From an uncultured Reyranella sp. (GTDB lineage: Bacteria > Pseudomonadota > Alphaproteobacteria > Reyranellales > Reyranellaceae): 38,212 nucleotides of DNA. A model generated the notes under the pieces. It was not told where the DNA came from, made no database searches, and saw nothing but the letters and a program-made list of their open reading frames with translations. The stretch lies in the NCBI GenBank assembly GCA_937919085.1, contig CALFRN010000101.1, positions 1 to 38,212 of the forward strand, written 5' to 3'. A program made the position numbers and the translations under genes. Below are positions 4,042 through 22,977 of the stretch, piece after piece. Every line of letters starts with the position of its first letter. Position 1 is the first letter of the stretch.

Positions 4042-5490
4042 TCAGGCGTCGAGCGCCTTCTTGAGCAGTTCGTTGACGATCTTGGGGTTGGCCTTGCCGC
4101 CGGTCGACTTCATGACCTGACCAACGAACCAGCCCATCAGTGCGGGCTTGGCCTTGTAGGCCGTGACCTGGCCGGGATTGGCGTCGATCACCGCCTTGAT
4201 CGCAGCCTCGATGGCGCCGGTATCGGTGACCTGCTTGAGGCCGCGTTCCTCGACCAGCACGGCCGGATCCTTGCCTGTCTCTTCCATGGCAACGAACAGA
4301 TCCTTGGCGATACGGCCGGAGATCGTACCATCTGCCTGCAGGTCCAGAAGCTTTCCCAGATTGGCAGCGCTGATCGGCGATGTCTCGAAAGTCGCGCCGC
4401 GTCGATTCAGCATGGCGAAGAAATCGCCTGTCACCAGGTTGGCAGCCTGCTTGGCATCGCGCCCCTTGGCGACGGCCTCGAAGAACTCCGCAGTCTCCTT
4501 TTCCGCGATCAGCACGCCGGCATCGTAAGGAGAGAGGCCATATTCCTTGATATAGCGGTTCTTCCGCGCGTCCGGCAGTTCCGGCAACGTGGCGCGGATC
4601 CTGTCGACATAGTCTTGAGTGAATATCAGCGGCAGCAGATCCGGATCGGGAAAGTAGCGGTAGTCGTGGGCGTCCTCCTTGGAGCGCATCGAGCGGGTCT
4701 CGCCACGGCCGGGATCGAACAGCCGGGTTTCCTGCACGATCCTGCCGCCGCCCTCGATGATCTCGACCTGGCGGCGCGCCTCATACTCGATGGCCTGCTT
4801 CACGAAGCGGATCGAATTCACGTTCTTGATCTCGCAACGCGTGCCCAGCTCGTCGCCCGGCCTGCGCACAGAAACATTGACGTCGCAGCGCATCGAGCCT
4901 TCGTCCATGTTGCCGTCGCAAGTGCCGAGATAGCGCACGATCGAACGCAGCTTGGTCAGATACGCCGCGGCTTCGTCGGCGTTGCGCATGTCGGGCCGGC
5001 TGACGATCTCCATCAGCGCCACGCCCGACCTGTTCAGGTCGACATAGGTCTGGCTCGGGTGCTGATCGTGCAGGCTCTTGCCGGCATCCTGCTCAAGATG
5101 CAGGCGCTCAATCCCGATCGTCCTGGTCGCTCCGCCTGCCAGGTCGATCTCGACGGCACCCTCGCCCACGATCGGGTCCTTGTACTGCGAGATCTGGTAG
5201 CCCGCCGGCAGGTCGGCATAGAAGTAATTCTTGCGGTCGAACACCGAGCGCAGGTTGATCCGGGCGTTGAGGCCGAGGCCGGTACGCACCGCCTGCTCGA
5301 CGCAGCGCTCATTGATCACCGGCAGCATGCCCGGCATGGCGGCGTCGACCAGCGACACCTGGGTGTTGGGTTCGGCGCCGAACACCGTCGGAGCGCCGGA
5401 AAAGAGCTTGGCATCGGAAACGACCTGGGCATGGACTTCCAGCCCCAGGACAATCTCCCAATCGCCGGTTTCGCCTTTGATCAGTGACAT
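4042..5490 (-). CDS. gatB: Asp-tRNA(Asn)/Glu-tRNA(Gln) amidotransferase subunit B
   Basis: A 482-residue protein starting [23 protein letters not shown]. It carries the GatB hallmarks: [24 protein letters not shown], and the [17 protein letters not shown] segment, followed by the tRNA-binding helical and YqeY-like tail. In the GatCAB complex GatB activates the mischarged Glu-tRNA(Gln) or Asp-tRNA(Asn) with ATP and transfers ammonia produced by GatA. The open frame extends 28 codons upstream, but that part does not look like GatB and has no clear ribosome-binding site. The gene is separated from gatC-gatA (9165-10958) by two unrelated genes and an intergenic stretch. Confidence 0.97.
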
Positions 5491-20591: not shown

Positions 20592-21689
20592 CTACGCCTC
20601 GGGCCGAGTTCCAATGTAGTTTGATTGCGGCCGGATAATGCGGCCGCCCTTCTTCTGCTCGAAGACATGGGCACACCAGCCTGCCGCCCGGCCAACCGCC
20701 AACAAGGCGGTAAAGGCGCTGCGCGGCACCTCGAGGGCCTCCAGCAGAAGCGCTGTGTAATATTCCACGTTGGTGTCGAGCCGCCGCCCCGGCTTGTGCC
20801 GGCGCAGCGCGGCGATGGCTGTCTTCTCGACCTCGACAGCGAACGCCAGTCGCCCCGCTGTTTGCGGCAAAGTCGCGACGATGTTCTTGAGCACATCGGC
20901 ACGCGGGTCGCGCACCTTGTAGATGCGATGGCCGAAACCCATCAGGGTCGTGCCTTTGGAAAATGCATCGTCAAACCATGCTCCGGCGCAATTGAGCGAA
21001 CCGATCTCGTCGAACATGTCGAGGACGGGACCGGGCGCGCCACCATGGAGCGGACCTTTGAGGGCGCAAAGCCCCGCCAGGACCGACGAGATCAGGCCGG
21101 CGTGCGTCGATGCAACGACGCGCGCCGTGAAGGTCGATGCATTGAAACCATGATCGGCAATGGTCGCGAGATAGGTATCGAGCGCGTGTTCGAACACGTC
21201 GTCCGCGCGCCTGCCGCGAATCATGCGCAGCAGGTCCTGCGCTGTCGTCAACATGGGGTCCGGCGCCAGAGCCGACTTGCCTTCCGAAGCCCGCAGAAGC
21301 GCCGCGAGGAAAACCGGCAGCGCGCCGCAGACAAGATAGTGATGCGGCATTAGTTCGGTGTCGGCCAGCATACCAAGGCCAACACGCAACCCTTCGACCG
21401 GCGTCAGGCCCTTGGTGGCAGCGAACAATTTCGGCACTTCAGCAAAGGCCCGGACCCGCGCCGAGGCAAGCCCTTCGCGGACGGCACCCTCGTCGCCACC
21501 GCCCTGGCCGGGCGGGGCGAATTCCTCCCAGAGCAACGCTGCGACACCTTCAAAGCCGGTCGTGGCCGCCAGTTCCTCGATCGAGCGGCCGCGCACGATG
21601 AGCCGGCCGGCCTCGCCATCGACCTCGCTCATCACCGAGTCGGCGACGATCACGCCATCGAGCCCGCTGTTCACCCGCGTCTGCAGCAT
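20592..21689 (-). CDS. Citrate synthase family protein (citrate/2-methylcitrate synthase type)
   Basis: A 365-residue protein. ADHGFNASTFTARVVAST (H180), KGPLHGGAPG (H215) and MGFGHRIYKVRDPRAD (H254) are conserved citrate synthase segments. The position of the catalytic Asp (normally NVDF) reads TNVEYYTALLL, with Glu (E309). Glu there is also found, as I recall, in CitA-like minor synthases. It condenses acetyl-CoA, or perhaps propionyl-CoA, with oxaloacetate. The start is fixed by GGAGGGG upstream of 21689; the track start is 18 codons too early. Divergent from a HTH-citrate synthase fusion. Confidence 0.9.
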   Translation of the reverse strand: MLQTRVNSGLDGVIVADSVMSEVDGEAGRLIVRGRSIEELAATTGFEGVAALLWEEFAPPGQGGGDEGAVREGLASARVRAFAEVPKLFAATKGLTPVEGLRVGLGMLADTELMPHHYLVCGALPVFLAALLRASEGKSALAPDPMLTTAQDLLRMIRGRRADDVFEHALDTYLATIADHGFNASTFTARVVASTHAGLISSVLAGLCALKGPLHGGAPGPVLDMFDEIGSLNCAGAWFDDAFSKGTTLMGFGHRIYKVRDPRADVLKNIVATLPQTAGRLAFAVEVEKTAIAALRRHKPGRRLDTNVEYYTALLLEALEVPRSAFTALLAVGRAAGWCAHVFEQKKGGRIIRPQSNYIGTRPEA

Positions 21690-21714
21690 CACATCCCCTC
21701 CAACTTGAAGGGCA

Positions 21715-21743
21715 AAAATCGAGCCGCACAAACATATTGTCAA
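21715..21743 (-). promoter_or_regulatory. Candidate promoter of the citrate synthase gene
   Basis: On the minus strand a perfect -35 hexamer TTGACA (21743-21738) is followed after 17 nt by GATTTT (21720-21715), a weak -10. It lies 26-54 nt before the citrate synthase start and next to the palindrome at 21750-21767. The -35 is good, the -10 is poor. Confidence 0.35.
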
Positions 21744-21749
21744 TCTTGA

Positions 21750-21767
21750 TTATATTGATCAATATAA
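21750..21767. promoter_or_regulatory. 18-bp perfect palindrome, probable operator of the HTH-citrate synthase
   Basis: TTATATTGATCAATATAA is a perfect inverted repeat, ending 4 nt before the start codon of the HTH fusion and adjoining the citrate synthase promoter region. A related partial copy, ATATTGTCAAT, lies 15-20 nt upstream. Placement between divergent genes, one of which codes for a DNA-binding domain, suggests autoregulation (inference). Confidence 0.6.
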
Positions 21768-21771
21768 AGTC

Positions 21772-22977
21772 ATGGCGATTGATTGGATAAGTTCCGGGGA
21801 AGCGGCACGGCGGCTGGGCGTTTCGGCGGCCACGCTCTACGCCTATGTGAGCCGTGGCCTGGTGCGGTCGGAGGCCATCGACGGCCGCCGCGAACGCCGC
21901 TATCGCACCGACGACGTCACGCGCCTGAAACGCCGGCGCGACGTCGGCCGCAAGGCCGAGTCGATTGCCACCCATGCCCTCGACTTCGGCACGCCGGTGC
22001 TGGAGTCGGCCCTCACCCTGATCGAGGACAACAAGCTCTATTACCGTGGCTCTGATGCCGCCCGCCTTGCTCGCAGCGCTTCGCTGGAGGAAATCGCCCA
22101 GCTTCTTTGGAACTGCGACGCGACACCGTTCGCCGCCGACAACCTGACGCCCATGACCACGGCGCTCCGGCGGGCCTGGCTGGCAGCGGCGGCACTGTCG
22201 CCGGTCGACCGCTGCCTCATCCTGCTGCCGGCAGCAGCGGCGCTGGACCACTCGAGCTGGGTCGAGGATCGCGCGCCGATGCTTGAGACCGGTGTGCGGG
22301 TTTTGCGTCTGCTGACGGCCGCCGTCACGGCACAGCCACCTTCCGCGCGCCCCGTCCACGAGCAGCTTGCGACGGCCTGGAATGTTCCGCCGGACCGCGC
22401 CCATGTTCTGCGCGCCGCCCTTGTCCTCCTCGCCGATCACGAATTCAACGCCTCGGCCTTTGCCGCACGGGTCGTGGCATCGACCGGCGCCAATCTCTAC
22501 GGCGCCACCCTGGCCGGGCTTGCCGCGCTTAACGGTCCGCGCCACGGCGGGCTTACCCGGCGCGTCTCGGCGCTGTTTGAAGAACTCAAGGACACATCGG
22601 ATCTCGACGCCGACCTGGTGCGGCTGCTGCGCGCCCACATCTACATCCCGGGCTTCGGGCACCAGCTGTATCCCGATGGCGATGTCCGCGCCGCGACCTT
22701 GTTCGCGCTCCTGCGCGAGACGGTCCCGGACTCCTTTGAGCTTGCCTTCGCAATGCACCTCGCGACGACCGTCGAGCGCCTGATCGGCCGCAAGCCAAAT
22801 GTCGATTTCTCCACGGTGACGGTCGAGCGTGTGCTCGCCCTACCCAGGGACTCCGCTCTCGCCTTGTTCCTACTCGGTCGCACGGTCGGCTGGATTGCCC
22901 ACGCGCTCGAGCAGGCAGCGCATGGAGCCTTGATTCGCCCGCGAGCCCGTTACACCGGGCCGCGCCCGGGCGCGTAG
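21772..22977 (+). CDS. Citrate synthase-like protein fused to an N-terminal MerR/excisionase-type helix-turn-helix
   Basis: A 401-residue fusion. Residues 5-52 (SSGEAARRLGVSAATLYAYV ... RYRTDDVTRL) form a MerR-like winged HTH; residues ~65-400 form a citrate synthase fold. The three catalytic positions are intact: H258 in NGPRHGG, H297 in GFGHQLYP and D345 in KPNVDFST, and H223 matches the upstream ADHxxNAS motif. The domain is otherwise quite divergent from the neighbour. It could be a metabolite-sensing transcription factor for acyl-CoA/oxaloacetate, an active enzyme, or both. A palindrome stands directly before its start. HTH-citrate synthases exist in other proteobacteria but I know of no established function. 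Confidence 0.88.
   Translation: MAIDWISSGEAARRLGVSAATLYAYVSRGLVRSEAIDGRRERRYRTDDVTRLKRRRDVGRKAESIATHALDFGTPVLESALTLIEDNKLYYRGSDAARLARSASLEEIAQLLWNCDATPFAADNLTPMTTALRRAWLAAAALSPVDRCLILLPAAAALDHSSWVEDRAPMLETGVRVLRLLTAAVTAQPPSARPVHEQLATAWNVPPDRAHVLRAALVLLADHEFNASAFAARVVASTGANLYGATLAGLAALNGPRHGGLTRRVSALFEELKDTSDLDADLVRLLRAHIYIPGFGHQLYPDGDVRAATLFALLRETVPDSFELAFAMHLATTVERLIGRKPNVDFSTVTVERVLALPRDSALALFLLGRTVGWIAHALEQAAHGALIRPRARYTGPRPGA

Follow-up and report, generated by a model that had tools for sequence, protein, structure and literature searches.

The gene at 21772..22977 of the window, a stretch of 38,212 nt from an uncultured Reyranella sp., encodes a helix-turn-helix (HTH) domain joined to a citrate synthase domain (HTH-CS). 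We put at roughly 65% the probability that this protein works as a one-component transcription factor that is autoregulated and acts locally, with the citrate synthase fold as its sensor of a di- or tricarboxylate. Comparison of its homologues suggests that it probably also represents a new transcription factor family found in several phyla, with the fold as a non-catalytic di-/tricarboxylate sensor, one near-invariant operator and one local target per genome, and a controlled gene that has been exchanged repeatedly.

According to the proposed mechanism, the HTH would bind a single site (21740-21763) between its own gene and a divergent citA-like gene, most likely repressing both promoters through occupancy. 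The citrate synthase domain would be a former enzyme, dimeric as citrate synthases are, which has lost its main CoA-phosphate anchor and has been retained as a ligand sensor. Its pocket may hold a di- or tricarboxylate such as oxaloacetate, citrate or 2-methylcitrate, and opening or closing of the fold on this ligand would alter DNA binding.

A transcription factor with the enzyme as its sensor domain had been proposed in a sequence-only reading of this DNA. The recognition helix, a site that tracks the HTH-CS gene and the carboxylate arginines now lend strong comparative support to this idea. That reading had overlooked that 20592-21689 encodes a second citrate synthase (CS2) and that the gap at 21690-21771 carries a conserved operator-like site. 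The features of the locus are as follows.

20592..21689, minus strand: divergent CitA-type citrate synthase (CS2), 365 aa from the likely ATG (NF009005)
21690-21771: gap between the HTH-CS and CS2 genes, with a putative TCAATCTTGAT site
21740..21763, plus strand: proposed operator TCAATCTTGATTATATTGATCAAT, ATCAAT end facing the HTH-CS gene (conserved position and orientation)
21749..21778, minus strand: promoter-like TCGCCA-18-TATAAT facing CS2 (consensus match only)
21750..21767, no strand: perfect 18-nt palindrome TTATATTGATCAATATAA, overlapping the proposed operator (sequence)
21772..22977, plus strand: HTH-CS fusion protein, the proposed regulator, 401 aa, ATG start (open reading frame, Pfam, model)
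21784..21939, plus strand: N-terminal HTH, residues 5-56 (MerR_1 and HTH_17 above Pfam cutoff)
within 21784..21939, plus strand: recognition helix TLYAYVSRGL, residues 21-30 (conserved in homologues)
21988..22944, plus strand: citrate synthase domain, residues 73-391 (PF00285, structure model, Foldseek)

Architecture and occurrence of the fusion

Pfam and structure prediction both bear out the earlier description of a MerR/excisionase-type HTH joined to a full citrate synthase. MerR_1 (PF13411) matches residues 7-54 with 34.8 bits (cutoff 21.6) and HTH_17 residues 5-56 with 27.8 bits (cutoff 27), while PF00376 stays slightly below its cutoff (27.1 against 28.2 bits). Citrate_synt (PF00285) covers residues 73-391 with 212.5 bits, against a cutoff of 27. 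The AlphaFold2 model, built for the monomer from an 86-row alignment (pLDDT 93.0, pTM 0.81), displays a folded N-terminal HTH, a low-confidence flexible linker at residues 64-73 and a complete citrate synthase fold. Foldseek indicates that the predicted structure resembles citrate and methylcitrate synthases, with target-normalised TM scores of up to 0.80. Sequence matches in the PDB cover the citrate synthase part or, weakly, the HTH, and none spans the fusion.

Of 24 congeneric genomes, 23 carry the fusion, and a sample of 399 genomes from the phylum has it in 54 when the threshold is set at 1e-60, a level that ordinary synthases did not reach in a comparison search. This recurrence indicates that the fusion is neither a product of chance nor an assembly artefact. 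The search that supplied the named homologues gave 521 confirmed stretches, a number not used here as a family size because some of them may be ordinary synthases. By its named close relatives, the genome belongs in or near Reyranella.

The genome harbors three citrate synthase genes, namely the divergent pair and a housekeeping-like third gene on contig C115. CS2 scores 390 bits against NF009005 (cutoff 332), and its likely ATG has GGAGG ahead of it. The solved structures nearest to it are the CitA proteins of B. subtilis (2c6x) and M. tuberculosis, and CS2 belongs with these enzymes in carrying Glu at the position of the catalytic Asp, as do 96 of the 97 divergent synthases compared. Since this Glu is common to the CitA enzymes, it is a trait of that subfamily rather than a fit to HTH-CS. 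The CitA-type synthases have no HTH and keep the CoA-phosphate Lys/Arg, and the HTH-CS family branches apart from them: in a tree of citrate synthase domains, all 63 HTH-CS rows lie on one side of a fully supported branch, opposite CS2, GltA and PrpC.

The HTH-CS and CS2 genes diverge across an 82-bp gap. This pairing is seen again elsewhere in the genus and across many other families of alphaproteobacteria, mostly with a gap of 81-90 bp. On the 3' side, the HTH-CS gene is followed by pyrB and a dihydroorotase-like amidohydrolase, which have no evident link to it.

Active-site residues and the Caulobacter proteins

The residues compared between HTH-CS and E. coli citrate synthase are listed below with their conservation.

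22543..22545, plus strand: H258 (GPRHGG), E. coli H264; His in 159 of 165 homologues
22660..22662, plus strand: H297 (GFGHQLYP), E. coli H305; His in 157 of 165
22672..22674, plus strand: P301, at the E. coli K309 position (CoA-phosphate site); Pro in 156 of 165
22687..22689, plus strand: R306 (carboxylate-binding), E. coli R314; Arg in all 165
22804..22806, plus strand: D345 (PNVDF), E. coli D362; Asp in 158 of 165
22879..22881, plus strand: R370 (carboxylate-binding), E. coli R387; Arg in all 165
22936..22938, plus strand: R389 (carboxylate-binding), E. coli R407; Arg in all but one (164 of 165)

Alignment to the E. coli enzyme agrees with the initial assignment of H258, H297 and D345 as the catalytic His, His and Asp. 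The equivalent of E. coli H229 is kept in 163 of the 165 homologues, and 155 of them retain the full set of seven active-site residues that was compared. As this may exceed the needs of a pure sensor, some catalysis by HTH-CS is conceivable. The position of E. coli K309 corresponds to pig R324, which contacts the CoA phosphate; a basic residue is absent here from HTH-CS, whereas all readable CS2 sequences have Lys or Arg.

Constraint is stronger on the recognition helix than on the catalytic triad. No degenerate HTH was found among the homologues: Y23, Y25 and R28 of the recognition helix and Y44 of the wing are present in 165 of 165, including members that lack catalytic residues, and T21, L22, A24, V26 and S27 each occur in at least 160, in a named set that was fetched with a pattern including LYAYVSR and genome-search sets that were fetched without it. 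Six homologues keep the intergenic site and have lost a catalytic residue. Two relatives from the Caulobacteraceae (L086 and L087) retain the HTH but have neither a CS2 partner nor the operator, and their catalytic residues are gone; their HTH-CS gene lies beside a cation-diffusion-facilitator-like gene, and decay or a changed role is possible.

In the genomes of one genus (g299), the same divergent HTH-CS/CS2 pair is located beside gltA. The HTH-CS protein of g299 is 32, 33 and 34% identical to B. subtilis CitA, Caulobacter GltA and E. coli GltA, respectively, and the values given for Caulobacter crescentus CitC (CCNA_03758) in passages of an eLife 2020 paper are 32, 32 and 33 (PMC7083601). 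For the divergent synthase the corresponding identities are 36, 31 and 30, and those given for CitB (CCNA_03757) are 37, 30 and 30 (PMC7083601). The g299 GltA, 65% identical to E. coli GltA, matches the CitA described in these passages. The identity figures in these congeneric genomes lead us to equate g299 with Caulobacter and to regard CitC as an HTH-CS protein with CitB as its CitA-type partner. Given the divergent arrangement and the matching identities, CitC/CitB and HTH-CS/CS2 are most likely the same pair. The passages of PMC7083601 report that CitB complements E. coli ΔgltA and that CitC does not; they treat CitC as a putative citrate synthase inactive in E. coli and give no HTH, DNA site or regulatory role for it. 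The failure of CitC to complement could also stem from poor expression or folding. CitA-type synthases carry Glu for the catalytic Asp, yet CitB, which we place among them, is functional as a citrate synthase.

These observations bear on the strongest competing explanation, a trigger enzyme: HTH-CS would bind DNA while remaining an active citrate or methylcitrate synthase, with turnover or acyl-CoA occupancy setting the regulatory state. The intact active-site residues of most homologues and the full predicted fold fit such an enzyme. The Pro at the K309 position, the scarcity of Arg at the R306 position (E. coli numbering), the CitC result (PMC7083601) and the loss of a catalytic His or Asp from some site-bearing homologues all point the other way, and we consider the trigger enzyme unlikely. 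For the same reasons, the suggestion that HTH-CS might still turn over oxaloacetate and an acyl-CoA is not supported, and enzymatic turnover looks unlikely. In favor of a sensor role are the conserved carboxylate arginines, the loss of the CoA-phosphate anchor and the behavior of CitC.

The intergenic site

The HTH-CS start codon lies 8 nt beyond the end of the proposed operator, and the -10 of the minus-strand TCGCCA-18-TATAAT falls within it. As the site covers or abuts both putative promoters, repression by occlusion is favored. A conserved putative cognate site at its own or target promoters is a trait of one-component regulators, and it is present here.

Pattern searches of whole genomes indicate how closely this site is tied to HTH-CS. 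An exact match to TCAATCTTGATTATATTGATCAAT occurs once in the 4.9 Mb of the window's own genome, at 21740, and exact matches in the congeneric genomes occupy the same place beside HTH-CS. Another 20 genomes, drawn from families of alpha-, beta- and gammaproteobacteria, again have essentially one copy each, adjoining the HTH-CS gene. A wider regulon was rejected for the genus and these 20 other genomes, in which the exact site occurs essentially once per genome.

The pattern TCAATMTTGAT-N6-8-ATCAA lies 5' of 113 of the 165 HTH-CS homologues and never appeared when the set was dinucleotide-shuffled 50 times. A looser form of the operator precedes 155 of the 165, from several phyla; the homologues are related to one another, and these counts do not stand for independent events. 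Position weights resolve the operator into two blocks, TCAATMTTGATT and AATCAAT, with a fixed orientation relative to the HTH-CS gene. A recognisable site directly 5' is missing in ten of the 165 members, six of which have an intact active site; one of these six (L257) has its sites at the head of its operon instead.

The same gap can be read in terms of a MerR-type activator, for which the site would sit between a -35 and a -10 element at an unfavorable spacing, and the ligand-bound protein would untwist the promoter. The HTH does score best against MerR_1 and, among solved structures, against SoxR, albeit weakly, and HTH-CS has the N-terminal HTH with wing in common with MerR/excisionase-type regulators. 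MerR operators lie within promoters that have a 19-20 bp spacer, and a possible plus-strand TTGTCA-N20-TATAAA spans the site. MerR regulators, however, carry a coiled coil and an effector domain where HTH-CS has its citrate synthase domain, and in the model the HTH is followed by short helices (46-59 and 62-72) with no long dimerisation coiled coil. The only promoter match found is on the opposite strand, with its -10 inside the site; a plus-strand -10 at 17-bp spacing (CAATAT) is also present, and in most lineages outside the genus the TTGTCA is not conserved. We consider an activator of this kind improbable as well. On current evidence, HTH-CS is neither a canonical MerR protein, as the missing coiled coil indicates, nor a working citrate synthase.

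Partner genes and relation to known regulators

The genes found divergent to HTH-CS differ between lineages. Tblastn identified a CitA-type citrate synthase as the divergent partner in 99 of the 165 loci, a class III CoA-transferase in 33, prpB (mostly with prpC) in nine loci of Pseudoxanthomonas and relatives, and citMHS citrate:proton symporter and HMGL-like synthase genes in two each; the sets were chosen by similarity to the window, and these counts are not prevalences. The operator persists across all of these partner types. On the tree of citrate synthase domains, the partner labels need about 21 changes among the 63 HTH-CS rows, as would be anticipated if a regulator had been recruited to new local targets.

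Genome G701 displays a more distant arrangement. Here a second HTH-CS gene lies 3 kb downstream, last in an SDR-MFS-VOC run, and the sites are found at the head of the run. In this locus (L257; contig C3, 3976-9140) two operator copies face each other, at 4996-5019 on the plus strand and 5165-5188 on the minus strand, between the head of the run and a divergent D-2-hydroxyacid dehydrogenase. The presence of the site at a distant operon head is the best evidence that it belongs to HTH-CS and not to one partner gene. The arrangement also suggests a different acid as the ligand of this second HTH-CS.

The changing partners weigh against a hetero-oligomeric regulator, in which HTH-CS would pair with CS2 through the citrate synthase dimer interface and sense the amount or state of CS2 rather than a free metabolite. 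The conserved divergent pairing of two paralogues in many alphaproteobacteria could be explained this way, as could the opposite changes in the two proteins, with CS2 keeping Lys/Arg and having Glu for Asp and HTH-CS showing the reverse. More than 40 loci, however, have a partner that is not of the CitA type while the site persists, the Glu is shared with the B. subtilis and M. tuberculosis enzymes, and CitB is active in E. coli without CitC (PMC7083601). We regard this explanation as very unlikely. These loci without CS2 weaken a heterodimer with CS2 as a general rule. The least probable explanation is that the HTH merely tethers a metabolic or inert protein, with the AT-rich site serving another regulator or promoters: DNA binding by HTH-CS is predicted, yet the exact site occurs essentially once per genome beside HTH-CS genes, and follows them through partner swaps and to an operon head, and the recognition helix is more constrained than the catalytic triad.

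The preferred reading, a local regulator with a citrate synthase fold as its sensor, has parallels among known systems. BirA, PutA, NadR and MocR/GabR are enzyme-derived one-component regulators or trigger enzymes; as proposed here for HTH-CS, the transcription factor contains or consists of an enzyme fold and responds to the substrate class of that fold. To our knowledge, none of them uses a citrate synthase fold as sensor. The B. subtilis citA gene also has a divergent regulator, but one of LysR type (CitR). In the open-licence literature, searched for descriptions of the fusion, of excisionase-type proteins and of trigger enzymes, we found no paper assigning a role to an HTH-citrate synthase fusion.

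If the preferred reading is true, very many genomes would hold a gene switch annotated merely as citrate synthase, and metabolic models that count HTH-CS as an enzyme would be misled. It would account for the inactivity of CitC from Caulobacter, a model bacterium, and mean that metabolites are sensed directly inside the cell where the TCA and methylcitrate cycles begin. It would also offer a biosensor whose operator is already defined. With operator, partner and residues named, the family is readily testable.

In eight loci of Pseudoxanthomonas and relatives (L197, L206, L208, L209, L210, L214, L215 and L259), the operator and HTH-CS are directly divergent to prpB-prpC. The HTH-CS family may thus control propionate degradation in these bacteria, unlike PrpR in Xanthomonas citri. 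The latter was considered as the same protein and rejected, since it is compared with Salmonella PrpR in the paper describing it and has the site GTTGCAA-N2-TTGCAAC (PMC12153269). The class III CoA-transferase partners, of about 450-520 aa (L157 and 32 other loci), are found in many betaproteobacteria and some alphaproteobacteria.
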